Virus record (IMG/VR): IMGVR_UViG_3300040751_002148
Location: 1 to 22,319 of that record
Source of the DNA: a virus
DNA: 22,319 nucleotides
Direction: 5' to 3' (one strand)
A model generated the notes under the pieces. That model saw only the letters and a program-made list of their open reading frames with translations, did no database searches and was not told the origin of the DNA. The position numbers and the translations under genes were made by a program. Positions 1,693 through 19,288 of the stretch are shown piece by piece (positions within the stretch are counted from its first letter, which is position 1; each line of letters begins with the position of its first letter).

Positions 1693-3528
1693 ATGGCAAC
1701 TAGTATAGAATCCACACAGCTCGATTTTGCTAGAATCAAAGAATCTTTAAAAACTCATTTTTTATCTACGGATGAGTTTGCGGATTATGATTTCGATGCA
1801 TCTGCATTGGATAGCATATTAGATGTATTGGCTTACAATACTCATTATAATGGTCTGGTTGCAAACTTCGCATTAAATGAAGCATTTTTAAACACTGCTC
1901 AGCTTCGCGCGTCCGTGCTCGCGATCGCGGAAAGTCTTGGATATAATCCAAAGTCTAAAAGCGCAGCCACGGCAATTGTTAATCTATCTGTTACTAATAC
2001 TTCTATCGGTCGTCCTTCGACCATTTCAATTTCTGCAAATAGAGCTTTTACATCGGCTGTGGATGATGTAACTTACACCTTTTACACAACGCAGTCTTAT
2101 ACAGCTGAAGATGACGGTAATGGATTTTATCAGTTTTTAACTTCAGATGGATCCGCTGATATCCCAATTTATGAAGGCGTATTAAAAACTAAAACATTCG
2201 TAGTAAGCTCGAATAATAATCCAATTTATATTATTCCTGATGAAAATATGGATACATCTACAGCGGTAGTTGAGGTATATCAAAATAGAACTTCTACAGT
2301 TTTTGACACGTATCTTCCATATAAAGATGCATTTACTATTACTCCACAATCTACTTTTTATGGACTAAGAGAAGCCCCGAATGGATATTATGAACTATAC
2401 TTCGGTGACGGGGCAGTAATCGGTAAAAAGCCTGCCGTTGGCGAAGTAATTATTGTAACATATCTTTCAACAAATTCTTCTGCAGCAAATAGAGCTACTA
2501 CTTTTACGTCACAAAATACTGTTACAATCGATAATGTTAACTATCCAATTGATGTTACTACGGTAAGTAGAGCGGCTGGTGGTTCAGATAAAGAATCTAT
2601 TACTTCTATTAAACAGAATGCACCAATTCAATTTGCTGCACAGAATAGACTCGTTACTCCTGAAGATTATATTGCTTTAATTAAATCAAATTATGGTAAT
2701 TTTATTAATGATGTTACTGCATGGGGTGGAGAGGATAATGTTCCACCGAATTACGGTAAAGTGTATGTTGCATTAAATTATAAAGACGGAACATCAGCAG
2801 CAACAAAGCAGACTATTCAAAGTGACATTACGACAAGACTTACCGATGGCAGAGCTATTATGTCAATCGATACATTATTTGAAAATGCTGCACAATGCTT
2901 TATTGAGACCGCAGTATTTTTCAACTTTAATCCATCGATTACTACTACCACTGCTGGTGCTATTGAAAATCAGGTTAATAATGTAGTAGCAAACTATTTT
3001 ACTAATAACTTAAACAAGTTCAACGAAGTGTTTAGAAGATCTTCGATTTTAACTGAAGTTGATAACCTTTCAGAAGCCATTTTAAACTCACGTATGGATG
3101 TAAAAGTACAAAGAAGATTTACGCCGGTGTTGTCGCAAGATCTTGCTTATAGCGTTAACTTTCCGGTAATTCTTTCATCGCCATTAGATGATGAATACGT
3201 CATTACTACCAATAAATTTGTATATGAAAATCAGTTATGTTTAATCCGTAACCAATTAAGTAGTACCACGTTACAAATTGTAAGAAACTCTGACGGTGCG
3301 GTATTAGTAAATAATATCGGATCTTATACACCTTCAACAGGTACTATAAACTTGGTTTCATTTAATCCTACAGAAATTGATGGCTCAATAACAGATATTC
3401 GTATTTCTGCTATCCCAGCAAATCAAAGTACTGTTCGACCATTAAGAAACTTTGTTTTAGCATTAGATACTACTAAATCATTTGCATCTGCACAGATCGA
3501 TTACGAACGTATTAGGGTTACTATCTAA
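1693..3528 (+). CDS. 6: Baseplate wedge protein, gp6-like (BaseplateJ family, 611 aa)
   Basis: This is a gp6/BaseplateJ-type wedge protein, which dimerises to form the ring of the baseplate and binds gp25 and gp7 in T4. The N-terminus 'IKESLKTHFL' with 'YNTHYNGLVANFALNEAFL' and 'RASVLAIAESLGYNPKS' (about 14-93) is the recognisable helical core of this family in T4-like phages. The middle contains 'YELYFGDGAVIGKKPAVGE' (about 232-250), then 'AAGGSDKESITSIKQNAP' and 'RLVTPEDYIALI' (about 293-329), all standard BaseplateJ landmarks. Length is close to T4 gp6 (660 aa). The start ATG lies 2 bases after the gp25 stop, and the end overlaps the next gene by one base (TAATG), indicating translational coupling. 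Confidence 0.9.
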   Translation: MATSIESTQLDFARIKESLKTHFLSTDEFADYDFDASALDSILDVLAYNTHYNGLVANFALNEAFLNTAQLRASVLAIAESLGYNPKSKSAATAIVNLSVTNTSIGRPSTISISANRAFTSAVDDVTYTFYTTQSYTAEDDGNGFYQFLTSDGSADIPIYEGVLKTKTFVVSSNNNPIYIIPDENMDTSTAVVEVYQNRTSTVFDTYLPYKDAFTITPQSTFYGLREAPNGYYELYFGDGAVIGKKPAVGEVIIVTYLSTNSSAANRATTFTSQNTVTIDNVNYPIDVTTVSRAAGGSDKESITSIKQNAPIQFAAQNRLVTPEDYIALIKSNYGNFINDVTAWGGEDNVPPNYGKVYVALNYKDGTSAATKQTIQSDITTRLTDGRAIMSIDTLFENAAQCFIETAVFFNFNPSITTTTAGAIENQVNNVVANYFTNNLNKFNEVFRRSSILTEVDNLSEAILNSRMDVKVQRRFTPVLSQDLAYSVNFPVILSSPLDDEYVITTNKFVYENQLCLIRNQLSSTTLQIVRNSDGAVLVNNIGSYTPSTGTINLVSFNPTEIDGSITDIRISAIPANQSTVRPLRNFVLALDTTKSFASAQIDYERIRVTI

Positions 3529-4693: not shown

Positions 4694-6025
4694 ATGGCGA
4701 TTATCACAGATCAATTTAGAAGGTATCTTGTACAAAAAATTATTGAAGATACCACTGCAAGTCCTGTTACTGCAAGATATTTCTTGGGGATTGGTAGATC
4801 TCAAGCTTGGAATGATACTGACACTGCGCCAGATCCTATTAATGGTATTGGTGAACAAAGAAACTTTCGTTTAAACTTGCAATCTTTAAAACAAGTGGGT
4901 TCTTCGAATATAACATTTACTGTACCCAGATACAATTGGATTTCTGGTACAATCTATAGTGCATATAGTAACTTTATTGCAGGATATCCTACTAATCCTT
5001 ATTACGTATTTACTGAAGATAATAACGTATATGTTTGCTTAGAACGCGGTAAAAATAATTTAGGTAGTCCATCCCCGTCTACTATTAAACCTACAGGCAC
5101 TGGTACAATTAAAACTGCCGATGGATATGTCTGGAAGTTTTTATATAATGTGGGGGTTTCGGCATCAAACTCTTTCCTTTCATCAAACTTTTTACCAATT
5201 AAATTTTTAGAAAGCGACCCGGGCTTAGGTGCTGATGCCGCTCAATGGACAGTTCAACAAGCTGCTGTAGCAGGAACAATTTCAAATATTGAAGTTACTG
5301 GCGGCGGATCGGGATATACTAGTGCACCGACTGTTACTATCCAAGGTAATGGAACAGGCGCAGTTGCAACAGCAACAGTTAGCGGTGGTCAAGTAGTAAA
5401 AATCGAAGTAAGAACATCTGGCGGCACTTATACACCAGGAAGCGGATACGATTATGCTAACCTAGTAATTTCCGGTGGTGGTGGAAGTGGTGCTACAGCA
5501 CGAGTAAATTTAGCACCAGCAAATGGATTTGGTGCTAACCCGCTTAACGATCTAAAATGTACTGGCATTATGTTTACAAGTGATATTGCTGGCACGGATC
5601 CAGATTTTATCGTCGGACAAGATTTTAGACAGATCGGCATTATTAAAGATCCAGTAAATGGAAGTGGTACTGCTATAACTTCTGCTACTGCATCTGCTCT
5701 AACATATATGACGTTATCATCTGGAAGCGGGTTTGCTAAAGATAAAATTATCCAAGGTACTACATCTGGCGCAAAAGCTTATATTGACGATATTAGCGGT
5801 TCAACCATTTATTACCACCAAGATGACACTACCGGATTCCTTGCATTCCAAAATGGAGAACCGATTACAGAAACTAACGGATCTGGATCTGGTACTATTA
5901 GCGTAGCAAGTAATATTGGTGATATAGATAGGTTTGGCGGTGAAATTCTTTACATCGATAACCGAGCCAATGTTGATCGTGACTCAGATCAAACTGAAGC
6001 ACTTAAAGTTATCATACAGTTATAA
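4694..6025 (+). CDS. 8: Baseplate wedge protein, gp8-like, with beta-repeat insertion (443 aa)
   Basis: A gp8 homologue, the dimeric wedge protein that links gp7 and gp10 in T4. Matching landmarks to T4 gp8 are 'YFLGIGRSQAW' (29-39; T4 has a 'FGRSEPW'), 'VYVCLERG' (112-119), 'DGYVWKFLYNVG' (143-154), 'DFRQIGIIKDP' (310-320; T4 'GFRQISIITNP'), and the C-terminus 'GGEILYIDNR' plus 'DQTEALKVIIQL' (T4 'SGEMIYMENR' and 'DQTEEINILFTF'). T4 gp8 is 334 aa; most of the extra length is explained by an insertion at about residues 195-275, built from two glycine-rich beta units ('GGGSGYTSAPTVTIQGNGTG' and 'SGGTYTPGSGYD'). A further Gly/Ser-rich stretch lies at about 322-400. An AGGAAA ribosome site precedes the ATG. 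Confidence 0.92.
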   Translation: MAIITDQFRRYLVQKIIEDTTASPVTARYFLGIGRSQAWNDTDTAPDPINGIGEQRNFRLNLQSLKQVGSSNITFTVPRYNWISGTIYSAYSNFIAGYPTNPYYVFTEDNNVYVCLERGKNNLGSPSPSTIKPTGTGTIKTADGYVWKFLYNVGVSASNSFLSSNFLPIKFLESDPGLGADAAQWTVQQAAVAGTISNIEVTGGGSGYTSAPTVTIQGNGTGAVATATVSGGQVVKIEVRTSGGTYTPGSGYDYANLVISGGGGSGATARVNLAPANGFGANPLNDLKCTGIMFTSDIAGTDPDFIVGQDFRQIGIIKDPVNGSGTAITSATASALTYMTLSSGSGFAKDKIIQGTTSGAKAYIDDISGSTIYYHQDDTTGFLAFQNGEPITETNGSGSGTISVASNIGDIDRFGGEILYIDNRANVDRDSDQTEALKVIIQL

Positions 6026-6043: not shown

Positions 6044-9000
6044 ATGGCAAATAAAGTAATTCAAAATACTTTCCTAAACACTTATAGAGATGATTACTCT
6101 GATAGTGCTGGCTATTATCGGGTACTGTTTAATAACGGTAGAGCAGTACAAGCTAGAGAACTTACGCAAATGCAAACTGCCATTCAGCGTGAGATTACCC
6201 GCATGGGCGATAACATTTTCAAAGAAGGTGCTATTGTTCAATCAGGTGGTTTTAGTGCTACTGGTGCAAAATTTGTAAAACTGAATACTACTACAAATAC
6301 ATTACCAGTCGACGGCAACGGTGCTTTAGTAGATTTACAGGGCGTAACCCTTACTAGCTCGAATGGCGCAAAAGCTATTGTTACTAAAGCTATTGAGGAA
6401 GAAGGTTCTGATCCAGCTACCCTTTACGTAGTTTATTCGGAAGGTTCAAATACATTCCAACCAGGAAATACTTTAAGTGGCACAGTCTCTATCGATAGTG
6501 TTAATACACCATTTACGCTTACGGTACAAACTACAAATACTACTTTAAATCCTGCAACTGGTACTGGTCTTTTCTGCACAAATGCAGAAGGCTCATATTA
6601 CGTCACCGGCAGATTTGTATTTGCACCAAAACAAACAATTATTGCTTCTAAGTATACTGACTTAGTTAACGATCAATTAGTATTCAAAGTTACTGAATCG
6701 ATTGTTACTGCGGATTCAGATAATACTTTATACGACAATTCAGGCGCATTACCTAACACGTCTTCACCGGGTGCAGACAGATATAAAATTACTTTAACTC
6801 TTTCGGTATTAAGCCAGTTAGATTCTGCAGATAACTATACTAAAGCTGCTACTATTGTTAATGGTAGATTAACAGATATTAATAAGCCATCGAATGAAGA
6901 AAGTTATAATATTATCCGAGAGCTTATTGCAACTAGAACATCGGAAGAATCCGGTGATTATATTGTAAAGCCGTTTAGAATTCGTTTTAATGATAATGTA
7001 GATGATTCAAGTAAATTAGATATTACTATGGATCCTGGTATTGCATATGTCGACGGTTACAGAGTTTCAAATGAAGTACCGAAAACTATTACAATCGATA
7101 AGCCAAGAACCACTACAACAGTTAATAACGAGGTTACCGCTTTCACATTAGGTAATTACGTTTTAATTGATGGTACTACTAATAAAGGTCTACCAAATGT
7201 AAACACTTTACCTTTAGTAAATCTTTACGATACTACTGGTGGTACTGGTACAGTAATCGGTACTGCTCGTGTAAGAGCAGTCGACGAAGATAACTCAGGT
7301 AGCTTCCGTGTACATTTGTTCCAGATTTCTATGAATTCTGGCACTAACTTTAGAAGTGTTAGAAGTTTAGGCACTGGCACATCAGATTATATGAATCTGG
7401 TATTAGAAGCTGGTCAAGCTGTTTTAAAAGATCCTGCTAATAATTCTTTACTTTTCCCTGTACCTAAGCAAAGACCTCAAAACCTTACTGACGTTTCACT
7501 TACAGTTCAAAGAAGATTCACTGACACTAGCGTAACTGGTGGTAGTACAACCTTTACTTTGTCAGCTGCTGGTGAAACAATTGCAAACGTAAATGACTGG
7601 ATTGTATCAACCCCAGATGGTGCAATTATTACGGGTGCAACAGTTACTGGTGCTGGCGGAAATACTGCTACTGTTAGTAATCTTGGTGCTGCTACTAGTG
7701 TCGAGGTTTTAGGTTACGTCGATAAAGCACAAGGCACTATCCGTAGCAAATCATTACAAACTGACTTTGTTGACACCATTATCCCAGGCGACTGGGACTC
7801 AGATGGCAATGGTACTATTTTTGCAAATCTTTCGAAGCCGGATGTTTATAGCTTTACCTCGGTAACAAAAGGTACTGTTACTGGTACTAATATTAGATCC
7901 AGGTTTATTTTGGATAACGGTCAAAGAGATAACTATTATGGCTTAGGACGTTTAGTTCTTAAACCGAGCCAATCAGTTCCTACTGATAACGTAGTAGTAA
8001 AATACGATTATTTCAGTCATAGTGCTGGTGACTTTTTTGCGGTTAACTCATATTCTACAATTGACTATGAAGATATTCCTTCACATACGTTAGTTAACGG
8101 TCAGACAGTACCGCTTAGATTAATGTTAGACTTTAGACCAGTGGTAAATTCATCTGGTGATTTTGGCTCAGGTGCTATTATTAATGAATTACCGCAACCT
8201 AGCGATACAATTCGTGCGGACATTTCATATTATAATGGTCAAAGGGGTAAAATGTTTATTTCTACTGCTGGGTACATTACCTATAAAGGTGGAGAATTAT
8301 CTTTAAATCCTGAATTCCCGCTTAGCCAATCCGGTATGCTAGAATTATATCGCATTACTTTGAATCCGTATACCTTAAATTACAAAGATGTGGTAGCTAA
8401 GCAAATTGAGCATAAGCACTATACTATGGCAGATATTGGTCTTTTAGAAAAAAGACTAAACGCTTTGGAAGAAGCTACTTCACTAAGCATGTTGGAGTTA
8501 GACACTTCAACTATTGCGGTACTTGACTCTGATGGTAATAACAGAGCTAAATCAGGTTTCTTTGTAGATAACTTTGCAAACCATGCATTTGCTGATGTTA
8601 ACGATCCAAGCTATGCAGCTCAATTAGATCCTGTTGAAAAGTATATTCGTCCGACCAGTTTTATTAACGGCATTAACTTAATGTATGATTCGGATAATCC
8701 GAATAACTCTAATGTTGTTAAAAGAGGTGATAACATTTATCTTGCTTACAGTGAAACCACATTCATTGATCAGGATCAAGCAAGCCAGGTCGAAAACGTG
8801 CTGCCATTCTGGGGTTTAAGATTTGAAGGTCATATCACATTATCGCCAGCAAGTGATAACTGGATCGAAAAAGATTATATTCCAGATGCCGTTGTTAACC
8901 AAACTGTTTTAGATACTTCAGGCGCAACTCTTTACAACGATTGGCAATGGAACTGGGGTGGTACTCCACTTGAAGATTTAGAAGTTGGTAGTGTTACAAA

Positions 9001-11689
9001 CCGAGTTACTTTAAGTAGTAGCACTAGCGTAAGCCAATCAGGTAATACTGTTACTGAAACTAGTACTACCAGAACTGGTCAAAACCAAATTGTAGGTGAA
9101 ACTACTATTAATGAAATCTTAAATGATAGATTGCTTCAAACTGCTTCTATTCCATTTATGAGATCCATTAAAGTTTACTTCAGAGGTCAAGGTTTTAGAC
9201 CTGATACTGAAGTATTCCCATTCTTTGATAAGATCGATGTTTCAGATTGGTGTAGATCTGAAACATTCGTAAGAGTTTCAGATGAGCCTGAAACTTTTGG
9301 TAATGTTCAAAATTCTGCTCTTGGTCACCCAGAAGGTGCATCATCACTTATTGCAGATGCAAATGGTACCGTGGAAGGTTCATTCTTTATTCCATCTACT
9401 TCTAACTTTAGATTTAATACTGGTACAAAAGAATTTATTTTAATTGATGTTACTAATCCAAATGCTGACTTTACCGATGCCACTTCTTACGGAAAACAGA
9501 TCTTTACCTCAGCTGGTATTTTAGAAACTAGACAAAGAGACGTTCTTTCAACTAGGGTATTAGAAGTGTCTAGTACTACTAGAACTACTAGCTCTTCGGT
9601 TTCATATGACGTTTCTCCACCGCCAGCACCAGCAGACACGCGACCTGCACGCGACATAAATGAAATGTCTTGCTTTGTTGCAGGCACTCAAGTAACTATG
9701 GCTGATGGAAGTAAAAAGAATATTGAAGATATTCTAATTGGTGAACAGCTTTTAGGTCAAGATGGGGTAATTAACACTGTTATCGAATACGATCATCCAA
9801 TGCTAAACGGTAGAGATCTAATTGCATTTAACGGCGGTAAACCATTTATGACTCCCGAACACCCACTTTGGACAAAAGATGGTTGGAAGTCTTGGTCAGC
9901 AGAAATGACTCAGTGGCAAAAGCCTGAAATCGCACACCTTATGGTTAACGGCGATTTCCAGGTTGGTGATGAAATCCTAATGGACGACGGAACTTGGTTC
10001 TTAATCGAATCTATTGATGTTCATAAAGGTGAGCCAGAACAGCAAGTATTTAACTTCTGGTTAGATGGTAATAATACCTATTTTGCTGATGGCTTCTTAG
10101 CTCACAACCGCGGTGGACAAGGCAACGGTGATAATAGTGGGGATAACGATCCTTTAGCACAGTCATTTAAAATCTACGAAACAAATGGTGTGTTTGTAAC
10201 AAAGGTAGATCTTTACTTTGCCACAAAAGATCCAGGTACTGCACCAGTTTGGGCACAAATTCGTGCAATGGATAATGGTTATCCGGCGTTCGATGTTATT
10301 GGTAGTTCTACTGTATTTAAATTCCCTTCTGAAATTACTACATCAGAAGATGCAAGTGTAGCTACATCTTTTGAATTTGAAGAGCCTGTGTATCTTTCAC
10401 CGGGTAAAGAATACTGTATCGTTATCGTATCAAACGTTAACACATATAGCGTTTATACTTCTAAAGTTGGTGATTATGTACTGGGTACAACAGATAAAAA
10501 GATTACCAAACAGCCGTTCCTCGGCTCACTATTTAAATCTTCAAACAACAGATCGTGGACAGCTACACAGTGGGAAGATCTTAAGTTTAAGGTTTATACT
10601 GCGCAATTTACTGATACCGGTACAGCAGAATTAACTAATACTAATGTTCCTCTTAAACTTTTAACCGAGGACCCATTATCGGTTGATTCCGGAAATGATG
10701 TTATTACAGTCTTCCATCCAAATCATGGATTTGATAGTGGAGATCAGGTAACTCTATCCGGTGCAGAAGGATTTGCTGGTATTTCGGCTGGTTCAATTAA
10801 TGGTACACGCTCTATTCTACACTTTGATGCAGATGGTTATCAGATCCAAGCTGATGCATCTTCAACATCAGCAGAAATTGGTGGTGGCGCAAATATCCTA
10901 GCTTCACAGAATATCCCTATGGATATGGTAAACATAAATATTTCAACATTATTACCAAATGCCACAGATATTTCGTCTAGCGTTAAAACTACTTCAGCAA
11001 GTTCGATTGCAGGAGATGAAACTGGTTATCAGCTATCGTCAACTTATGAACCTATTCAGCTGAATAAAAATAAATACTTTAATAGCCATAGACAAATTGC
11101 CAATGCGGCAAACGAAACTACTTTCTTATCTGGTAATAAGAGCTTTAACTTAAAGTTAAATTTTGCTACTAACGATAATAAAGTTTCGCCAGTTATTGAT
11201 ATGCAGAGAGCTACAGCAATTGCAGTTTCGAATAAAATCGATAGACCTGCAGCAGTAGACGCAGTAGGATTTAACGTTCCTATTAACTACGTAGCAGAAA
11301 CTAATCCGAAAGGTGGTTCTGCAAGCTCTAAACATATTACTAAATCAGTTACTCTGGCTCAAGATGCTGTTGGCTTAAAAGTAATCCTATCTGCTAACAA
11401 ACCAGCAGCTGCTTCTTGGGATCTTTACTACAGAGTGGTTTCAGGCGATTCAAATATCTCTGACCAAAACTGGACTCTTATCGGTGTTACAGATGAAGGA
11501 TATCCAGCAGGCGGACTAATCAGTGATGAAGATAACCAAGTGTTTAGAGAATACGAATACCTGATTGGCGGTAAAGCTGGAACCTTACCAGCATTCAGCC
11601 AATTCCAAATTAAGATTGTAATGACTTCTTCAAGTCAAGCAAAAGTTCCAACATTTAAAGATCTAAGAGCAATTGCACTGGCGGTATAA
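6044..11689 (+). CDS. Giant baseplate/tail structural protein (DUF4815-type) with internal Hint domain (1881 aa)
   Basis: The N-terminus ('MANKVIQNTFLNTYRDDYS', 'NNGRAVQARELTQMQTAIQR', 'DNIFKEGAIVQSGGF') is the DUF4815-type start of large structural proteins of marine T4-like phages, encoded just after gp8 where T4 has gp9/gp10; a role in the outer baseplate or fibre attachment is inferred. Residues 1 to about 1185 are beta-rich modules. A Ser/Thr-rich stretch and Pro-rich linker ('PPPAPADTRPARD') lead into a Hint domain at 1210-1355, followed by a Gly/Asn/Asp linker and a C-terminal half starting 'DPLAQSF' (about 1367), with 'LSPGKEYCIVIVSN' and 'KQPFLGSLFKSSNNRSWT'. Relatives that I recall run from a proline-rich linker directly into D-P-L-A-Q-S-F, so the Hint segment looks inserted in a linker. 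The gene lies 18 bases after gp8 and overlaps the next gene by one base. Confidence 0.85.
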   Translation: MANKVIQNTFLNTYRDDYSDSAGYYRVLFNNGRAVQARELTQMQTAIQREITRMGDNIFKEGAIVQSGGFSATGAKFVKLNTTTNTLPVDGNGALVDLQGVTLTSSNGAKAIVTKAIEEEGSDPATLYVVYSEGSNTFQPGNTLSGTVSIDSVNTPFTLTVQTTNTTLNPATGTGLFCTNAEGSYYVTGRFVFAPKQTIIASKYTDLVNDQLVFKVTESIVTADSDNTLYDNSGALPNTSSPGADRYKITLTLSVLSQLDSADNYTKAATIVNGRLTDINKPSNEESYNIIRELIATRTSEESGDYIVKPFRIRFNDNVDDSSKLDITMDPGIAYVDGYRVSNEVPKTITIDKPRTTTTVNNEVTAFTLGNYVLIDGTTNKGLPNVNTLPLVNLYDTTGGTGTVIGTARVRAVDEDNSGSFRVHLFQISMNSGTNFRSVRSLGTGTSDYMNLVLEAGQAVLKDPANNSLLFPVPKQRPQNLTDVSLTVQRRFTDTSVTGGSTTFTLSAAGETIANVNDWIVSTPDGAIITGATVTGAGGNTATVSNLGAATSVEVLGYVDKAQGTIRSKSLQTDFVDTIIPGDWDSDGNGTIFANLSKPDVYSFTSVTKGTVTGTNIRSRFILDNGQRDNYYGLGRLVLKPSQSVPTDNVVVKYDYFSHSAGDFFAVNSYSTIDYEDIPSHTLVNGQTVPLRLMLDFRPVVNSSGDFGSGAIINELPQPSDTIRADISYYNGQRGKMFISTAGYITYKGGELSLNPEFPLSQSGMLELYRITLNPYTLNYKDVVAKQIEHKHYTMADIGLLEKRLNALEEATSLSMLELDTSTIAVLDSDGNNRAKSGFFVDNFANHAFADVNDPSYAAQLDPVEKYIRPTSFINGINLMYDSDNPNNSNVVKRGDNIYLAYSETTFIDQDQASQVENVLPFWGLRFEGHITLSPASDNWIEKDYIPDAVVNQTVLDTSGATLYNDWQWNWGGTPLEDLEVGSVTNRVTLSSSTSVSQSGNTVTETSTTRTGQNQIVGETTINEILNDRLLQTASIPFMRSIKVYFRGQGFRPDTEVFPFFDKIDVSDWCRSETFVRVSDEPETFGNVQNSALGHPEGASSLIADANGTVEGSFFIPSTSNFRFNTGTKEFILIDVTNPNADFTDATSYGKQIFTSAGILETRQRDVLSTRVLEVSSTTRTTSSSVSYDVSPPPAPADTRPARDINEMSCFVAGTQVTMADGSKKNIEDILIGEQLLGQDGVINTVIEYDHPMLNGRDLIAFNGGKPFMTPEHPLWTKDGWKSWSAEMTQWQKPEIAHLMVNGDFQVGDEILMDDGTWFLIESIDVHKGEPEQQVFNFWLDGNNTYFADGFLAHNRGGQGNGDNSGDNDPLAQSFKIYETNGVFVTKVDLYFATKDPGTAPVWAQIRAMDNGYPAFDVIGSSTVFKFPSEITTSEDASVATSFEFEEPVYLSPGKEYCIVIVSNVNTYSVYTSKVGDYVLGTTDKKITKQPFLGSLFKSSNNRSWTATQWEDLKFKVYTAQFTDTGTAELTNTNVPLKLLTEDPLSVDSGNDVITVFHPNHGFDSGDQVTLSGAEGFAGISAGSINGTRSILHFDADGYQIQADASSTSAEIGGGANILASQNIPMDMVNINISTLLPNATDISSSVKTTSASSIAGDETGYQLSSTYEPIQLNKNKYFNSHRQIANAANETTFLSGNKSFNLKLNFATNDNKVSPVIDMQRATAIAVSNKIDRPAAVDAVGFNVPINYVAETNPKGGSASSKHITKSVTLAQDAVGLKVILSANKPAAASWDLYYRVVSGDSNISDQNWTLIGVTDEGYPAGGLISDEDNQVFREYEYLIGGKAGTLPAFSQFQIKIVMTSSSQAKVPTFKDLRAIALAV
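9671..10108 (+). other. Hint (intein-like/BIL) domain coding segment within the giant tail protein
   Basis: This segment encodes residues 1210-1355, 146 aa, with the core features of a self-processing Hint domain. It opens with a cysteine in 'CFVAGTQVTMADG' followed by 'KKNIEDILIGE' (block A). A block-B T-x-x-H appears in 'FMTPEHPLW'. The C-terminal end 'NTYFADGFLAHN' carries the H-N pair (block G). No homing endonuclease is present; the length is that of a mini-intein. The residue after the final Asn is Arg, not Cys/Ser/Thr as in true inteins, which points to a bacterial intein-like (BIL) type Hint domain that may cleave instead of splicing efficiently. Whether it is active cannot be told from sequence. 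Confidence 0.85.
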
Positions 11690-12439: not shown

Positions 12440-13903
12440 ATGGCAGTTAGAATTCCTTTAAAGGTAGATAACGGCGATCTTAGGCAATTGACTGGCGCCG
12501 AAATCACCGCAATTCAAAACGAAGCAGCCAGACTTTATGGATTAAATCCTTCCGTTACTTTATCCGTAGTTACTTCAGGGGGTAGTTTAGGTAATATTGC
12601 AGATACCAGACTCCAAGCTGGTGCAATGTCACAGTCCAATACTGCTACTCCCCCTATAACTACTACTGAAGACGTTTCTACTATTACAGTAAATCACTCG
12701 AAGATCAATCAAGCTAGAGATACCAGTGAATCCCCTTGGAGTAATGGTACGTATTCATACCCTCTTTATTATGATAACGGCGATTTGAGGGAAATGACCG
12801 AAACCGATTTTGCAGATACTTTTATTAAGCCTGCAATTAATATTCTAACCAACACTACTGCAAACCCCGGTACTTATTTTGTGTCTACGACAGCTGGTGG
12901 TATTTCAGGTGCAACCTTATTATCAGCTACCCCTATTTTCACTGATACGAGATACAATCTTCCTACACTTTCAACTACAGCATTCGTTTCATATGAAGTT
13001 ATTGGTGGCGGTGGTGAAGGCGGCGGCGGTTACCTAGGTGGTACTGGTGCATCAGGTGGCACATCAAGTATAACTGGTTCATCTGGTTCTGGATTTACAA
13101 CAGCTACATCTGCTGGCGGCCCCGGTGCTGGCGGTAGTGGTGGTACATCACAAGCTGGTTTTGCAAGTTACTATGGACCTGGTGGCGCTGGTGGTATTAA
13201 CTCCGACAGTAATAGACAAACACCAGGATATCCAGCACCGAGTACGTCATATGGTGCTGGCGGTGGCGGCGGCGGCGCTTGGCCATTCTCGGCTAATAAC
13301 GGTGGTGCTGGTGGTGGCGCAGCAACTCGTCAAACGGGCACACAATCAGTAAACGTTGGTTCCTCATTAACTGTTGTTATTGGCTCTGGTGGTTCTGCAA
13401 TTAGCGGCGGTGGTAATGGTGCTGGCGGTTATGCTAAAGTCACAGTAGACGGTACTGTGTACGAGTACACTATCCCAGGAACATATACTATTAACGTTAC
13501 AAGTGCAAGTATCGATTTACCTTTCCCCGAGGATGATCCTGTTACTATTACTAATTACTATTTGTATAAACAAAATGGTACGCTTGATGAATTCGAGCAT
13601 CCTTTACCAGTGACTTATACTAAAACCGGTATAAATTTAGCAGCTATTCCAGATGCAGATTTTTCAAACGCACTTGAAACTATGGTTAGATATTACGCTG
13701 CAGAAGTTACGGGTTCTAGAATTACCTATACTATTAATGGTACTGGCACTACCCAAGGTACTGCAATGACTGATACTAAATTAAACAGTTCGCAGTACTT
13801 AACGGATTACATCCCAGCTTCCGATTTATATCAAGCACAAGAAATTCCTGCTGGTACGGCATCTACTATATCAACTTATGCACTAAAAATTAGTCAAACG
13901 TAA
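12440..13903 (+). CDS. Glycine-rich tail adhesin-like protein (487 aa)
   Basis: The N-terminal third contains a duplicated unit: 'DNGDLRQLTGAEI' (about 10-22) and 'DNGDLREMTETDF' (about 111-123), probably two copies of a small attachment module. Residues about 189-333 are an extreme Gly-rich domain ('GGGGEGGGGYLGG', 'GPGGAGGINSD', 'GAGGGGGGAWPF', 'GSGGSAISGGGNGAGGYAKV'). Its opening strand 'FVSYEVIGGGG' and closing strands 'VNVGSSLTVVIGSGG' and 'YAKVTVDG' match the layout of Gly-rich domains in phage tail proteins, and poly-Gly stretches of this kind form polyglycine-II helix sandwiches in T-even gp38 adhesins. The C-terminal part (about 355-487) is beta-rich with 'YYLYKQNGTLDEF'. A receptor-binding role is likely but inferred. 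It sits among fibre genes directly upstream of the modification cassette. Confidence 0.75.
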   Translation: MAVRIPLKVDNGDLRQLTGAEITAIQNEAARLYGLNPSVTLSVVTSGGSLGNIADTRLQAGAMSQSNTATPPITTTEDVSTITVNHSKINQARDTSESPWSNGTYSYPLYYDNGDLREMTETDFADTFIKPAINILTNTTANPGTYFVSTTAGGISGATLLSATPIFTDTRYNLPTLSTTAFVSYEVIGGGGEGGGGYLGGTGASGGTSSITGSSGSGFTTATSAGGPGAGGSGGTSQAGFASYYGPGGAGGINSDSNRQTPGYPAPSTSYGAGGGGGGAWPFSANNGGAGGGAATRQTGTQSVNVGSSLTVVIGSGGSAISGGGNGAGGYAKVTVDGTVYEYTIPGTYTINVTSASIDLPFPEDDPVTITNYYLYKQNGTLDEFEHPLPVTYTKTGINLAAIPDADFSNALETMVRYYAAEVTGSRITYTINGTGTTQGTAMTDTKLNSSQYLTDYIPASDLYQAQEIPAGTASTISTYALKISQT

Positions 13904-14389: not shown

Positions 14390-15016
14390 ATGTACAATGT
14401 GATATGTGTCAAATTTGGCACCAAATATAATTCAGAATTTGTTAATAAGTTATATAAAGATCTTAAAGGTGTAACAGAACAGGAATTTAATTTTTTCTGT
14501 TACACCGATAATCCCAATGGTATAGATTCAGATATTGAAATTATACCGGAAATGCGCTCTCCTACATTAAAAGGTGTTTGGAATAAGTTACGCTTATTCG
14601 ACGAAGAAATGTATCTGGAAGGTAAATGTTTCTTTTTTGATTTAGATATTAAAATTTTAAAAGATCCTTTTATTGAAGTAGATTGGAATAAGCTAACTGT
14701 TATCGATTCACATTGGAAAGATCCTAATATTATTCGGCCAACTAATTATGACGTAACAATGAATAGTTCCGTTATGGCATGGGATGCAAATAATCCTAAC
14801 ATCCAAAAAATTTGGGAACACTTTAATACTGGTTATAGGGATTATTATCTTCGCAAATACGTAGGCATAGATAGATTTATTACTCACGAAAAGATTGATT
14901 ACGATACGTTCCCGCACGAGTACATTCAATCCAAAAAATATCAAGAGAATGTAGACTATGAAGCAAGTGTTTTGACATTTGAGGAGATTGAGGTTGGACT
15001 CGAAGATCTTAGATAG
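14390..15016 (+). CDS. Glycosyltransferase-like protein, first copy (208 aa)
   Basis: A GT-A-fold type nucleotide-sugar transferase is suggested. The N-terminus is a strand-loop 'MYNVICVKFGTKYNSEFVNK', followed by 'FNFFCYTDNPNGI' (33-45), 'WNKLRLF' (64-70), and a metal-binding D-x-D in 'CFFFDLDIKIL' (80-90; D84 and D86). Downstream 'MNSSVMAWD' (about 124-132) is where related GT8-like proteins carry their N-S-G-V-M acceptor-side motif. It shares the order V-x-C-V-(K/R)-x-G-x-K-Y, W-N-K-L-x-x-F and D-x-D with the protein at 16480, so the two look paralogous. An AAAGGA site (14378-14383) precedes the ATG. The sugar and acceptor are unknown. Confidence 0.75.
   Translation: MYNVICVKFGTKYNSEFVNKLYKDLKGVTEQEFNFFCYTDNPNGIDSDIEIIPEMRSPTLKGVWNKLRLFDEEMYLEGKCFFFDLDIKILKDPFIEVDWNKLTVIDSHWKDPNIIRPTNYDVTMNSSVMAWDANNPNIQKIWEHFNTGYRDYYLRKYVGIDRFITHEKIDYDTFPHEYIQSKKYQENVDYEASVLTFEEIEVGLEDLR
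14981..14986 (+). promoter_or_regulatory. Ribosome binding site GAGGAG fixing a TTG start at 14994
   Basis: GAGGAG lies inside the end of the upstream glycosyltransferase gene and is 7 bases before an in-frame TTG at 14994. The longest frame would begin at TTG 14979, but that start would place this strong ribosome site inside the coding region, so 14994 is the better start for the methyltransferase-like gene. Confidence 0.6.
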
Positions 15017-15614
15017 AGCATTAAAAGCCATCGAAGAAGTTTATAATGAATCAATGTACGGTAAAGACGATCTTTATCGCATGAAAGATATTATACATTC
15101 GGTAGATGAAAACCATTGGAAAAGTAAAGAATGGTTAGCCGAAAAGATTAAAAAAATTTACGGTCCTTATGATGATGGACATACGTATATTGTTGGCGGT
15201 TGGTATGGTATGATGGCATACCAAATAAGAAAGCAATGGCCAAATATTAGTATGAATATCACTTCGGCTGATATGGATCCGGAAGCAAAAGAGATTGCTT
15301 GGCTAATATTTCACGGTTACGATTTACAGTTTGAAACTGTTGATATAAAAGATAAAACTGATCTTTCAGAGTATTCTATTATTATTAACACAAGCTGTGA
15401 ACATATGGAACAAAAAGATCTTCTTAATATTATTAAAAATAAAGATAAAAATACATGGGTGTGTTTTCAGACAAACGATTATGAAGAATTAAATTCACAC
15501 ACGAATTGTTTTAAATCTGCCGAAGAGTTTGCTGATAGTTTGCCTATTCGTAAGGCATATGTGGGAACATTAAACCTAAATGATTTTAATCGATTTATGG
15601 TTATAGGTAGATGA
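14994..15614 (+). CDS. Class I SAM-dependent methyltransferase-like protein (206 aa)
   Basis: With the TTG start at 14994 the protein begins 'MDSKILDRALKAIEEVY'. A helix, then 'TYIVGGWYGMMAYQI' (about 64-78) supplies the glycine-rich SAM-binding loop (G-G-W-Y-G). 'MNITSADMDPEA' (about 87-98) gives the strand ending in an acidic residue that usually binds the SAM ribose, and 'SIIINTSCEHM' stands at the motif IV position. Later 'WVCFQTNDYEE' and the C-terminal 'NRFMVIGR' complete the alternating strand pattern of a Rossmann-type methyltransferase. No DNA-methylase N/D-P-P-Y/F motif is seen, so a small-molecule, sugar or protein target is more likely. The gene overlaps its neighbours on both sides (23 bases upstream, ATGA downstream), placing it firmly in the cassette. 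Confidence 0.7.
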   Translation: MDSKILDRALKAIEEVYNESMYGKDDLYRMKDIIHSVDENHWKSKEWLAEKIKKIYGPYDDGHTYIVGGWYGMMAYQIRKQWPNISMNITSADMDPEAKEIAWLIFHGYDLQFETVDIKDKTDLSEYSIIINTSCEHMEQKDLLNIIKNKDKNTWVCFQTNDYEELNSHTNCFKSAEEFADSLPIRKAYVGTLNLNDFNRFMVIGR

Positions 15615-16483
15615 GAAAAATAGTATTCAGCATTTTTATCGATATACCAGAGGATAAGTTAGATAATCCTGGTTGGTTCGAAAATGGTGTGCAAGTTAAA
15701 ACAGATAAAAGTCTAAAAACAAAGCAAGCACTATTAGCAAACTATTCAAATATTATTGCTAACCATAAAGAATATGCTGATACGATTGGCGTTGATTATA
15801 GATTATATGAATATGATGATCTTTATAAAAGATTCAGTACTCTATTTCAATTACAATATACAGAAATTTCTGAATATGATATAGTTAATTTTTATAAACA
15901 TCATATAATGTACGAATTAACAAAAGAATATGATGAAATTTGTTATCTAGATTTTGATGTTGTGGTAAACACAAAAGAATCTATATTTGAAGCTCATGAC
16001 ATCTATAATAAATTCGGTTGTGCCCATTCAAATAAATTAGCTGAATGGGGTAAAAAAGTATCACCTAAAAAATATAATACTTGTATTCGTAATCCAGCTA
16101 CGAAATACTGGAATACACATGCAATGTTAGATGATCAGGGCTTTGAACCAGATAATGACGTATTTAATACAGGTATTATGGTTGCATCTGCGAAGATTAT
16201 AAAGCAACTAGATTACTTTAAAGATTTTAAAGACCATATTAATATAATGACTCGATTAAAGAATGATGAAGATTCATTATACCCGTATAATATCCGTCGT
16301 GTTTTTGGTTATGATAATGAAACCTTATTTTCTTATTTTATTCAGTCAAAAAATATACCAGTTGAATATTTAAATGGACCTTGGCATCGAATTGTTGATG
16401 AAAGATATGAAAATATGAATCAGGTTCCTCCTAGTAATCTATACCATTTCATTAATAAAAAAATGGAATGGGTATTTGAATGA
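15611..16483 (+). CDS. GT8-like glycosyltransferase (290 aa)
   Basis: This protein has the core pattern of GT-A retaining glycosyltransferases of the GT8 type. 'YDEICYLDFDVVVNT' (107-121) gives the D-x-D metal site (D114, D116). 'NDVFNTGIMVAS' (182-193) corresponds to the F-N-(S/T)-G-(V/I)-M motif. The C-terminal 'GPWHRIVDE' and 'LYHFINKK' supply the late histidines often found in this family. The N-terminal 'KIVFSIFIDIP' is the first strand. It begins within the stop of the methyltransferase-like gene (ATGA) and ends overlapping the next gene in the same way, so the group is translated as a unit. Donor and acceptor cannot be read from sequence. Confidence 0.75.
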   Translation: MRKIVFSIFIDIPEDKLDNPGWFENGVQVKTDKSLKTKQALLANYSNIIANHKEYADTIGVDYRLYEYDDLYKRFSTLFQLQYTEISEYDIVNFYKHHIMYELTKEYDEICYLDFDVVVNTKESIFEAHDIYNKFGCAHSNKLAEWGKKVSPKKYNTCIRNPATKYWNTHAMLDDQGFEPDNDVFNTGIMVASAKIIKQLDYFKDFKDHINIMTRLKNDEDSLYPYNIRRVFGYDNETLFSYFIQSKNIPVEYLNGPWHRIVDERYENMNQVPPSNLYHFINKKMEWVFE

Positions 16484-17166
16484 AAGTTTTTTGTGTAAGA
16501 ATCGGAAACAAATATGGTCCAGAATATGAGGATTATATTAATAGTAAATTAGAAGGGCATGACGTTTATTGGATTCGTGAACCATTTCATCCGTCTATTC
16601 CGTTGCAATGGAACAAATTACAAGTGTTTGGAATGGATATTAATGAACCAGTTATTGTTATGGATATTGATAAGCTTCTTATACATAATTATGAGGAAGT
16701 ACTAAATTATCCGTGTAAAAAAGGTCAATTTGTTTCAACGCCTTATTGGTGGAAACAGTCTACTATGCCATATAAAAGTAGTGGTGGTTTCTATAAGTTT
16801 TGGCCATCTACGACTAGACACATTTATGAAAAATATATGGGCGATATTCCATATTATACAAACTATTATATTAAAGCTGGATTAACAACTGGGCCAGTAA
16901 ATGGCGAGTTTATGTTTGTTCAAGATAGCTTATATGGTATGGACTTTAAAATAATGCCGGATGCTTGGTTTACTCGATGGGTAAGCGATAATAAAGTTAC
17001 TACTAACACCATAATACTAGAAAGTAAATATTGTGAAGTTACCGGCAATGATTATCTTTACGACGGTAAAGACTTTCATCCTGATGTTAAAATGGTACAC
17101 TTTACCCACAGTTTAAATAAGCCACATGAATGGAAAGACTATGGTAAGTTTAATACGAAATTATAA
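16480..17166 (+). CDS. Glycosyltransferase-like protein, second copy (228 aa)
   Basis: 'MKVFCVRIGNKYGPEYEDYI' opens the protein and parallels the start of the protein at 14390. 'LQWNKLQVF' (42-50) and 'PVIVMDIDKLLI' (57-68), with the D-x-D at 62-64, follow at matching spacing. Unlike its paralogue it has an aromatic-rich middle ('TPYWWKQSTMPYKSSGGFYK', about 87-106) and 'TTGPVNGEFMFVQDS', which could shape a different acceptor site. The C-terminal 'VKMVHFTHSLNKPHEWKDYG' contains a histidine cluster similar to those that close the active site in GT-A enzymes. It starts in ATGA overlap with the GT8-like gene and its 3' end overlaps the radical SAM gene by 26 bases. Confidence 0.7.
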   Translation: MKVFCVRIGNKYGPEYEDYINSKLEGHDVYWIREPFHPSIPLQWNKLQVFGMDINEPVIVMDIDKLLIHNYEEVLNYPCKKGQFVSTPYWWKQSTMPYKSSGGFYKFWPSTTRHIYEKYMGDIPYYTNYYIKAGLTTGPVNGEFMFVQDSLYGMDFKIMPDAWFTRWVSDNKVTTNTIILESKYCEVTGNDYLYDGKDFHPDVKMVHFTHSLNKPHEWKDYGKFNTKL

Positions 17167-17911
17167 CGAACTATACAATCTAAGTAAACTTAGAATGTGG
17201 CTAGACCTTTCTACATATTGTAATGCAAAATGTCCACAGTGTCATAGGACGAATGCTAATGGTCTTGGCAAAGTAGATTGGTTGCCATTAGTACAATGGT
17301 CCTACGATCAGTTCGTCAAAATGTTTCCGAAAAAACATTTGGATAAAATAGATCACTTTGATATTTGCGGTACTTGGGGTGATCCCATTATGAATAAAGA
17401 TATATTCAAAATTGTAGAATATATTATGCAAAATACCGAAAGCACTACAGTACTAATAAACACAAACGGCAGTTTTCGTAATGAAAATTGGTGGTGGGAG
17501 CTTGGCTTATTAGGTAAAGAAAGAATAAAAGTTATGTGGGCTGTTGAAGGTGTTACACAGGAACAGCATTCTTTATATAGACAAAGTACCAATTTAGAAA
17601 CAGTTTTAAGTAATATGGAATCATTTAGTTTGGCTGGTGGTATTAGTGAAATCTTTACCGTTGTATTTAAACATAATGAAAATCATTTATTGGAAATAGC
17701 AAAATTAACTAAACAGCATGGTGCTAAATGTATTATGTTTATCCAATCAAATAGATTTTATAATAATATGAAGTTCGATTTTATTAATGAGGCAGGTGAA
17801 AGTAAAGTATTAGAAAGAGCCGAAAAAGAAAATTCTGCGTTTTACGGTGCAACCTTTAATTTACATGATTCTGAACATTTAGAAAGAATTAAAAATGAAT
17901 CCATTAAATGA
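17141..17911 (+). CDS. Radical SAM protein, core domain only (256 aa)
   Basis: The protein has the radical SAM cluster C-x3-C-x2-C in 'STYCNAKCPQCHRTNANG' (Cys 27, 31 and 34 from the start at 17141). It begins with the typical first strand 'LRMWLDLS', followed by 'DHFDICGTWGDPIMNKD', the equivalent of the G-G-E-P SAM-binding motif (here G-T-W-G-D-P), and 'TTVLINTNGSF' for the next strand. Radical SAM enzymes cleave SAM with a 4Fe-4S cluster to start radical chemistry. The length (256 aa) covers the partial TIM barrel but no C-terminal accessory domain; that lies on the next ORF in another frame. ATG 17141 is chosen because GGAAAG stands at 17132-17137; the frame also has an ATG at 17126. Confidence 0.85.
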   Translation: MVSLIRNYNELYNLSKLRMWLDLSTYCNAKCPQCHRTNANGLGKVDWLPLVQWSYDQFVKMFPKKHLDKIDHFDICGTWGDPIMNKDIFKIVEYIMQNTESTTVLINTNGSFRNENWWWELGLLGKERIKVMWAVEGVTQEQHSLYRQSTNLETVLSNMESFSLAGGISEIFTVVFKHNENHLLEIAKLTKQHGAKCIMFIQSNRFYNNMKFDFINEAGESKVLERAEKENSAFYGATFNLHDSEHLERIKNESIK

Positions 17912-18290
17912 AAATAAAATGAATATTCAATGTCAATGGATGCAAAGTAAAAGACTATTAATTAATCCAGACGGTCAGGTATTGCCTTGTTGTTATTTTG
18001 CTAATGTCATTTATATGTTAACGAAAATTGACGAAGAGGATATGAAACCCAAAGCAAGAGAAGATCGCGGGGTCGAAGATCAAATTATGGATAAAGGTTT
18101 AGTTGCTTTAGAAACAGAAGCAGAGCCTTTATTTGCCGAATATATTCGGGATAAAGAAAAGTATAATATTAACAATACTGATTTAGAAGAAATAGTTAAT
18201 TCGGATTGGTTTACGAAAGATCTTCCCGAATCTTGGAATGATTCATCAAGAGTCACAAGGCAATGTAAAAAGTATTGTACTAAAAAATGA
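17895..18290 (+). CDS. SPASM-like Cys-rich accessory domain protein, probably the other half of the radical SAM protein (131 aa)
   Basis: The sequence 'NIQCQWMQSKRLLINPDGQV' followed by 'LPCCYFANV' is the standard opening of a SPASM/twitch accessory-cluster domain (C-x-n-DG-x-v-x-P-CC), with Cys 13, 32 and 33. It closes with 'RQCKKYCTKK' (Cys 124 and 128), giving five cysteines able to hold an extra 4Fe-4S cluster. In most relatives this domain is fused to the C-terminus of the radical SAM core; here it is encoded in a +1 frame, overlapping the core gene by 17 bases. It may be a separate subunit, a frameshift product, or one gene split by an indel in the A5 run at 17891-17895. The start codon has no strong ribosome site. 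Confidence 0.7.
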   Translation: MNPLNENKMNIQCQWMQSKRLLINPDGQVLPCCYFANVIYMLTKIDEEDMKPKAREDRGVEDQIMDKGLVALETEAEPLFAEYIRDKEKYNINNTDLEEIVNSDWFTKDLPESWNDSSRVTRQCKKYCTKK

Positions 18291-19288
18291 TATGTAAAGC
18301 ACCAGTTAATAATATGTATTTTACTGTATTTGGTACAGTAGCTCCATGCTGGTTAACTGTGGGTGCAATTGATCGGTGGTCTCCTGAAAGGTCTATTCGA
18401 GATATTTGGTTCGGCGAACATTATCAACGTATCAGAGATAATATAACAAATAATATTTTTGTCGGTAAATGTGCTGAATGCAAAAAAGATTTAGATAATA
18501 ACGTTTGGCCATTAGCAAAAGCATATGAAGAATTTCCGGTAAGGGAATATCCTAGTCTTATCGAATTAGAGTTAAGCAATCAATGCAATTTAGAATGCAT
18601 TATGTGTTCCGGCGTATTAAGTTCTGGTATTCGAAAAAATCGGGATAAACTACCTCCTCTTCCTCAAATCTACGATGAATCCTTTCGGGAACAACTAAAG
18701 GAATTTATCCCGCATTTACAAGAGTTGCGCATTAATGGTGGTGAACCATTTGCACAAAAAATTGTGCTTGATATTTGTGAAGATGTTGCACAATTAAATC
18801 CGGGGTTAAAAGTAAACATTGCTACAAACGGTACTGTGTATAATAAGCGCGTTCAAAAGATCTTAGATATGTGCAATATTCATATTAACATTTCTATTGA
18901 CAGTTTAATACCTGAACGTTATGCCGAAATCCGTATCAATGGTGATCTTGAAGTCTTATTAAATAACTTTAAAATCTTTAATAAATATTGTAAAGACGGT
19001 AATAAAGATCTTTGTATTATGGTAAATCCCATGAGACAGAATTGGGATGAAATGGTAGATTTTGTAAAATGGACACATGAAAATCAGGTAAAGCTTTGGT
19101 ATAATACCATCCGTTATCCAGAACATTGCGCCATATGGAATCTTTCAACAGAAGAGTTGAAAACAATATACGAAACATTAAAAAACAAACTTGACACTGA
19201 GATTAATAAAAGATATTCTAACTACGAGAAAATCGATCATTTGGTTAATCATCAAATACGTACGTGGTTGCTTGATAGTTATATGTGA
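18287..19288 (+). CDS. Radical SAM protein with N-terminal SPASM/twitch-like domain (333 aa)
   Basis: The domain order is inverted compared with classic SPASM enzymes. A Cys-rich accessory region comes first: Cys3 in 'MICKAPVNNMYF', Cys21 in 'GTVAPCWLT', and Cys62/Cys65 in 'VGKCAECKKD'; it also has 'SIRDIWFGEHYQRIRDNI', the usual SPASM helix. The radical SAM core follows: 'IELELSNQCNLECIMCSG' with Cys 100, 104 and 107, the G-G-E-P motif in 'ELRINGGEPFAQK', 'VNIATNGTVYN' and 'INISIDSLIPERYAEIR'. Such N-terminal-twitch radical SAM proteins are seen in phages, with unknown substrates. The start overlaps the preceding stop (ATGA), so it is coupled to the SPASM-like ORF. It closes the cassette; a 131-base gap with a late promoter follows. 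Confidence 0.85.
   Translation: MICKAPVNNMYFTVFGTVAPCWLTVGAIDRWSPERSIRDIWFGEHYQRIRDNITNNIFVGKCAECKKDLDNNVWPLAKAYEEFPVREYPSLIELELSNQCNLECIMCSGVLSSGIRKNRDKLPPLPQIYDESFREQLKEFIPHLQELRINGGEPFAQKIVLDICEDVAQLNPGLKVNIATNGTVYNKRVQKILDMCNIHINISIDSLIPERYAEIRINGDLEVLLNNFKIFNKYCKDGNKDLCIMVNPMRQNWDEMVDFVKWTHENQVKLWYNTIRYPEHCAIWNLSTEELKTIYETLKNKLDTEINKRYSNYEKIDHLVNHQIRTWLLDSYM

Follow-up and report, generated by a model that had tools for sequence, protein, structure and literature searches.

The window, by which we mean the whole 22,319-base stretch analysed here (IMG/VR virus record IMGVR_UViG_3300040751_002148, from an uncultured marine phage), encodes a baseplate protein of the DUF4815/VrlC family that carries a Hint domain of the BIL type between its two main parts. 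The Hint leaves 1209 amino acids (aa) on its N side and 526 aa on its C side (Table 1). We assign the host protein to DUF4815/VrlC because it has both the Pfam DUF4815 match and the conserved DPLAQ[ST]F C-domain, and its gene lies downstream of gp25-, gp6- and gp8-like wedge genes. The nearest isolate is phage C48C1 (42% in gp6), which is assigned to Kyanoviridae. A solved structural relative exists in the DUF4815 protein of PDB entry 9EUF; the structure search labels it only 'DUF4815 domain-containing protein', and we take it to be a protein of phage phi812. VrlC itself is thought by the authors of the pelagimyophage work to replace T4 gp7 in the baseplate (PMC7029224).

Table 1. The Hint-bearing gene, its parts and its upstream neighbours in the window
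Feature	Position	Strand	Basis
gp6-like baseplate wedge gene	1693..3528	+	PF21379; phrog_219 E 1e-135; 42% to phage C48C1 gp6
gp8-like baseplate wedge gene, directly upstream of the DUF4815 gene	4694..6025	+	PF09215 E 8e-10; phrog_438 E 6e-79
DUF4815/VrlC baseplate protein, 1881 aa, Hint host	6044..11689	+	Pfam PF16075 E 6e-49; phrog_358, phrog_877; PDB 9euf chain 0 E 1.5e-41
N-part of the DUF4815 protein, up to about residue 1165	6044..9538	+	alignment with Hint-less relatives; profile match 8e-269
Variable linker preceding the Hint, rich in Ser, Thr and Pro, residues ~1166-1209	9539..9670	+	alignment with relatives
BIL-type Hint domain, residues 1210-1355 (146 aa)	9671..10108	+	Pfam, profile, alignment, predicted fold
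Cys1 (Cys1210), predicted nucleophile of the N-S acyl shift	9671..9673	+	invariant, 29/29 aligned Hints
Block B TPEH, T1270-H1273	9851..9862	+	invariant in alignment of the window's Hint relatives; T/S-x-x-H in all listed DUF4815 BIL-type Hints
Terminal His1354-Asn1355 (predicted Asn cyclisation, C-side cleavage)	10103..10108	+	invariant, 29/29 aligned Hints
Arg1356, +1 residue	10109..10111	+	Lys or Arg in all DUF4815 BIL-type Hints found
Gly/Asn-rich C-side linker, R1356-N1368	10109..10147	+	sequence; shorter in L006 (RS), L021 (RGA)
C-part of the DUF4815 protein, DPLAQSF start	10148..11686	+	profile match 7e-151; PDB 9euf_0 residues 792-951; own gene in six other loci

The Hint domain

Profile and fold agree on the identity of the domain. 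In a search with the whole protein, the Pfam model Hom_end_hint matches at E 4e-11, which exceeds its curated cut-off, and a profile of the phage Hints run against the PDB finds BIL2 as its best match (E 5e-21) and the BIL of Clostridium thermocellum at E 3e-19. The AlphaFold2 model of the Hint, made from a 29-row alignment, has a mean predicted local distance difference test score (pLDDT) of 87.5. In structure comparison it matches BIL2 with Z 19.2 (root-mean-square deviation 1.9 Å over 141 residues, 23% identity), the C. thermocellum BIL with Z 16.4, mini-inteins with Z of about 15 and hedgehog Hog with Z 13.8. A Z of at least 8 was reached by 81 of the 992 aligned PDB chains, and the best rows listed are all BIL, intein or Hog. 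Model residues 16 (Cys1) and 161 (Asn) pair with residues 1 and 440 of the RecA mini-intein; since these are the first and last residues of the domain, both junction residues are in register with those of the mini-intein. The predicted structure is thus the horseshoe-shaped beta fold of Hint domains, which would hold both junctions together. A chance match to the motifs is ruled out by this fold and profile evidence.

The type of Hint can also be narrowed down. Cys1 with T-x-x-H, a C-terminal His-Asn, the lack of an obligatory +1 nucleophile and a location in a variable host region are all features of A-type BIL domains, and all are found here. We rule out a canonical class 1 intein, because the +1 residue is Arg1356 rather than Cys, Ser or Thr and the site is a variable linker rather than a conserved one. 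A hedgehog-type Hog is likewise ruled out, as 526 aa follow the domain and His-Asn is present, and so is a degenerate relic, as the catalytic residues are kept. At one position the window's clade departs from most of the phage Hint family, having Asn in place of the block F His. The first-pass annotation of this DNA, made from the letters alone, had proposed that a core tail protein contains a self-processing domain similar to BILs, with Cys1, T-x-x-H, terminal His-Asn, Arg at +1 and flexible linkers on both sides. Its coordinates and residue assignments (9671-10108, residues 1210-1355) proved exact, and the linkers are as it described them, rich in Ser, Thr and Pro on the N side and in Gly and Asn on the C side. 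Given the fold, the complete and conserved active site and the clean domain boundary, we consider it well supported that residues 1210-1355 form an intact, BIL-type (A-type-like) self-processing Hint domain.

The best match in both structure and profile, BIL2 of the Tetrahymena thermophila BUBL1 locus (PDB 6Y75, 6TMM), resembles the window's Hint in lying between two independently folded domains and in having Cys1, the block B His and the C-terminal His-Asn (it was crystallised with the changes C1A and N143A). Its host, however, consists of ubiquitin-like domains, whereas the phage Hints belong to a baseplate protein and have Arg or Lys at +1. For the Zn pair H48/H125 of BIL2, our alignment suggests a counterpart of H48 in the His of a DHP motif, but Asn stands at the position of H125 in the window's clade. 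An isopeptide activity is reported for BIL2; the evidence on the window's Hint comes from sequence and model. A-type BILs, for example that of C. thermocellum (PDB 2LWY), share with it the length, the fold, the terminal His-Asn and the lack of Cys, Ser or Thr at +1, and they too are placed in a variable part of their host protein (PMC7765530, PMC5874633). The phage Hints differ from them in that the +1 residue is nearly always basic, that they reside in a conserved protein of the virion and that one and the same site has been filled repeatedly. Canonical mini-inteins (Mtu RecA, Ssp DnaB) have the fold and the register of the junctions in common with the window's Hint, which lacks both their +1 nucleophile and their conserved insertion site. 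Hedgehog Hog (PDB 1AT0) has the same fold, but it ends the chain without His-Asn, which is the architecture of the six two-gene loci described below.

The joint and its occupants

When the protein is aligned with DUF4815 proteins that lack a Hint, from the isolated phages HTVC008M, Mosig, Melnitz, C48C1, pf16, Delftia PhiW-14 and two Vibrio phages, the Hint falls between '..STR.LEV' and 'DPLAQ[ST]F'. The same linker in 80 further Hint-less relatives is 15-120 aa long and unrelated in sequence between phages, and it is variable across about 90 relatives. Hence, the Hint sits at a joint that varies in length and sequence in all relatives, unlike most inteins, which are inserted in a conserved core. 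A Hint was found in none of the best 80 of at least 598 DUF4815 C-domain relatives, and none of the isolated phages in the phage collection has the window's arrangement. The DUF4815 proteins of 9EUF and of Pelagibacter phage HTVC008M are homologous baseplate proteins (the DPLAQSF domain aligns at 9euf chain 0 residues 792-951), but they are single chains with a plain linker and no Hint.

At this joint a BIL-type Hint is also present in the DUF4815 proteins of twelve other loci (L001, L002, L006, L021, L024, L025, L029, L038, L043, L047, L049 and L054); contig ends cut L002 and L049, and three of the loci (L038, L043 and L049) nearly duplicate L047. With the window included, none of the 13 loci (15 domain copies) has lost Cys1, His-Asn or the basic +1 residue, even at about 31% identity, and T/S-x-x-H is present in every distinct copy. 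The first-pass annotation had named routine loss of Cys1 or the terminal Asn in homologues as something that would refute its proposal, and no such loss was seen. It had also suggested that the flanks might join cleanly at the S1209/R1356 boundary, which is true of one side only. On the C side the arrangement is tight: HN is followed by R or K and, after 0-12 residues, by DPLAQ (HN-RS-DPLAQ in L006, HN-RGA-DPLAQ in L021, HN-K-DPLAQ in L024). The predicted C-cuts therefore fall 1-13 residues ahead of the PxAQ motif (HN/K-DPLAQ in L024, HN/RS-DPLAQ in L006; here and below a slash marks a junction). On the N side the Hint is preceded by a Pro-rich stretch that is hypervariable, where no clean joint can be drawn.

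The +1 residue is Arg in the window's Hint group and Lys in the other DUF4815 BIL-type Hints; among 39 non-redundant members of the wider Hint family with HN, it is Lys in 26, Arg in 4 and another residue in 9. Since Lys or Arg is always found in the DUF4815 loci and in 30 of the 39 wider members, a basic +1 residue seems to belong to the Hint module. In the BIL literature that we found, this is not stated as a BIL feature. The ratio of non-synonymous to synonymous rates (dN/dS) is about 0.15 where dS is unsaturated (Hints of L029 and L047, 0.048/0.325); the values of about 0.04-0.07 in saturated Hint pairs are only indicative, dS being saturated for most pairs. Together these values point to purifying selection on the Hint. 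In one DUF4815 protein (L024:6980-8430) three BIL-type Hints stand in tandem with single-Lys joints (..LVHN-K-CF..), followed by K-DPLAQTF.

The domain does not appear to have simply descended with its host. Its presence on the host trees is patchy and requires at least three to four changes. By host protein the window, L006 and L002 form a clade (support 100), which the Hint tree rejects (approximately unbiased (AU) test, p 0.0046, on a short alignment of 148 columns). Between L006 and L001 the Hint is 85% identical and the flanks 46% and 43%; between L029 and L054 the figures are 77% against 28% and 31%. As the history of the Hint thus conflicts with that of the host protein, it has probably moved between phages, through cassette exchange among distant hosts at one site. 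The AU test speaks against plain vertical inheritance with the host protein; unevenness in the evolutionary rate of the Hint is a weaker alternative explanation of the conflict.

Six further loci (L086, L088, L089, L214, L219, L220) have the same protein in two genes. There the N-part gene terminates in a hedgehog-like Hint, and the C-part is an open reading frame (ORF) of its own that begins 435-465 bases downstream of the N-part gene. These Hints have G/CF.. at the start, a GSH-type block B and no His-Asn; we call them hedgehog-like because they stand at the C-terminus, have these motifs and match Hom_end_hint weakly (E 4e-4). The separate C-part genes begin on the PxAQ motif or 2-13 residues ahead of it (MAIAQTF in L220, MATSLGYKLNKNPIAQSF in L214). 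In the host tree the sister of L220 is HTVC008M, an isolated phage that has no Hint (support 100), whereas L086, L089 and L214 lie near the window's clade, so that the two-gene version is present in two host lineages. For this reason the same joint has, as far as sequences can tell, gained two Hint types repeatedly; the numbers are low, and loci of one lineage do not count as independent cases. The two-gene loci also show that the N- and C-halves need not be made as one chain. Another split occurs in L054 (2479-8920), where the DUF4815 gene is broken into two ORFs upstream of the Hint, elsewhere than in the other split genes.

Between the N-part and C-part genes of the two-gene loci lies a gene of about 150 aa of the phrog_17252 family. 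In a set of 71 loci (L086, L088, L089 and L214-L275, among others), with many unrelated N-parts ahead of the Hint, such a gene follows the C-terminal hedgehog-like Hint in 61 and is adjacent or overlapping in 55. Its product has one invariant Cys (PICAxGLY). By eye it had looked like a GNAT acetyltransferase, but profile searches of Pfam and the PDB did not bear this out, and it has no recognised fold. Neither the window nor the other BIL-type DUF4815 loci contain this gene.

Proposed processing and competing readings

In our opinion, the Hint most plausibly processes its own chain after translation, with cutting at one or both junctions as the main outcome, and we put the probability of this at about 0.58. 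Cys1210, aided by T1270 and H1273, would take over the peptide bond of Ser1209 as a thioester, and Asn1355, aided by His1354, would cyclise and cut the chain before Arg1356. Since the +1 residue is Arg and not Cys, Ser or Thr, the transesterification of inteins is impossible, and hence cutting at one or both junctions is to be expected. The 526-aa C-part would then be freed from the N-part of about 1209 aa and would start a few residues before the DPLAQSF domain, just ahead of its own folded domain, as the C-part does in the two-gene phages. In the baseplate this might, for example, give the C-domain freedom of movement or allow its separate placement, and the first pass saw in it a possible timed maturation step during assembly. 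That the reaction occurs, that cutting is its main outcome and that it is relevant to baseplate assembly is what we infer from these data. Cleavage into parts of about 1209 and 526 aa, as suggested in the first pass, gains indirect support: the same two parts are separate genes in relatives, and the C-cutting His-Asn is missing in the six loci where no downstream chain is left to cut.

Several observations weigh against this proposal. The two-gene loci carry the other Hint subtype, and so show that separate parts are tolerated without proving that the window's Hint cuts. Most DUF4815 proteins are single chains whose linker has the length that a spliced product would have, and the sequences are just as compatible with splicing back to an ordinary protein. 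The chemistry may differ in the window's clade, given its Asn in block F. Finally, BIL2, the closest solved relative, is reported to form an isopeptide bond rather than only to cut (PMC8616854).

The strongest competitor is non-canonical splicing, in which the alpha-amine of Arg or Lys +1, once freed by Asn cyclisation, attacks the N-side thioester, which would release the Hint and restore a continuous baseplate protein with an ordinary linker. This aminolysis is the step by which BILs splice in the alternative manner. Splicing by an alternative route, with no +1 nucleophile, is known for A-type BILs, although cleavage is described as frequent for them (PMC5874633). The rejoined product would resemble the Hint-less relatives, and the retention of a basic +1 residue in the majority of the family would fit. 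The two-gene versions show, on the other hand, that rejoining is dispensable. We regard splicing as possible, if on the unlikely side.

The Hint may also be a selfish passenger, a mobile mini-intein-like cassette that sits in a tolerant linker without benefit to the phage, which would be compatible with the other readings. The conflict between Hint and host histories described above and the patchy presence on the host tree would be explained in this way. However, the 146-aa Hint contains no endonuclease domain, the site is not conserved as intein sites usually are, selection maintains the catalytic residues, and this one joint has taken up Hints of two different types. Hence, we find pure selfishness unlikely.

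A third reading is ligation, with the N-part thioester passed to an amine or other nucleophile of another molecule, to which the baseplate protein would become attached. Hedgehog passes its thioester to cholesterol, and the hedgehog-like Hint at this same joint always ends its chain, in most loci with the phrog_17252 gene as its pair. The closest structure, BIL2, has a reported Lys isopeptide bond (PMC8616854). In the window, the side chain of a Lys at +1 is ruled out as the acceptor, because the residue is Arg, which cannot serve as a side-chain nucleophile; no acceptor is known, and the partner gene is missing there as in the other BIL-type DUF4815 loci. Ligation thus appears decidedly improbable to us. 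An inactive structural leftover, for which the Asn in block F could be cited, is very improbable in view of the main catalytic residues all kept in 13 DUF4815 loci and of the purifying selection.

It is tempting to speculate further that Hints are a reusable device at tail-protein joints of marine phages, by which the upstream chain is not only cut but activated as a thioester and joined to a chosen partner. This would amount to a BUBL- or hedgehog-like ligation in the virion, with the BIL-type (HN-K/R) and the hedgehog-type (with phrog_17252) as modules that can replace each other at the one baseplate joint; we consider so broad a scheme doubtful.

Related Hints and their significance

Hints were also seen in other proteins. 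A BIL-type and a hedgehog-like Hint stand in tandem at the chain end (VHNK/CF or VHNKG/CF) in L215:5345-7435 and L216:177-2648, and similarly in L224, L226, L270 and L273. In L003 (6662-7792) a Hint separates the N-domain from the C-domain of a tail assembly protein similar to lambda gpI (phrog_32), and in L062 (6917-14020) one lies close to the N-terminus of a gpJ-like tip attachment protein (phrog_31, FNIII-A_GpJ; ..GSKG/CF..HN/KGGG..). Large proteins of similar appearance, with a Hint near the N-terminus, occur in L059, L061, L063, L064, L067, L068, L070, L073, L076, L077 and L082. Tail-region proteins with a C-terminal Hint without His-Asn are encoded by the isolated Providencia phage PSTNGR1 and Achromobacter phage 2-1 (L286:3557-4510, L287:3083-4525), which makes these two phages laboratory-accessible Hint-bearing relatives. 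Beyond its DUF4815 gene, the window has a 487-aa ORF with a long Gly-rich stretch and no significant family match (12440-13903) and, past the structural genes (14390-19288), small ORFs that by eye are glycosyltransferase- and radical SAM-like (CNAKCPQC, CNLECIMC) and sit in the host-recognition region described for pelagimyophages.

BIL chemistry is known, and proteins of uncultured phages already carry Hint annotations in the databases. Our search of the open-access literature, which does not prove absence, brought up no paper describing a Hint or BIL domain in the baseplate protein of a phage, the repeated gain of Hints at a single joint of a virion protein, or a hedgehog-like Hint with a phrog_17252 partner.

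Most known BIL domains come from variable bacterial proteins, and what they do for their hosts is largely an open question. The present one belongs to a core baseplate component that T4-like marine phages have in common, so that Hint-free, Hint-bearing and split-gene phages can be compared directly at one joint. Because a DUF4815 protein has been solved, the question of what BIL domains are for becomes testable on a defined structure. In structural proteomics of marine phages such proteins would show as two bands, and the Hints themselves provide a set of small natural processing domains in which a basic +1 residue is conserved.

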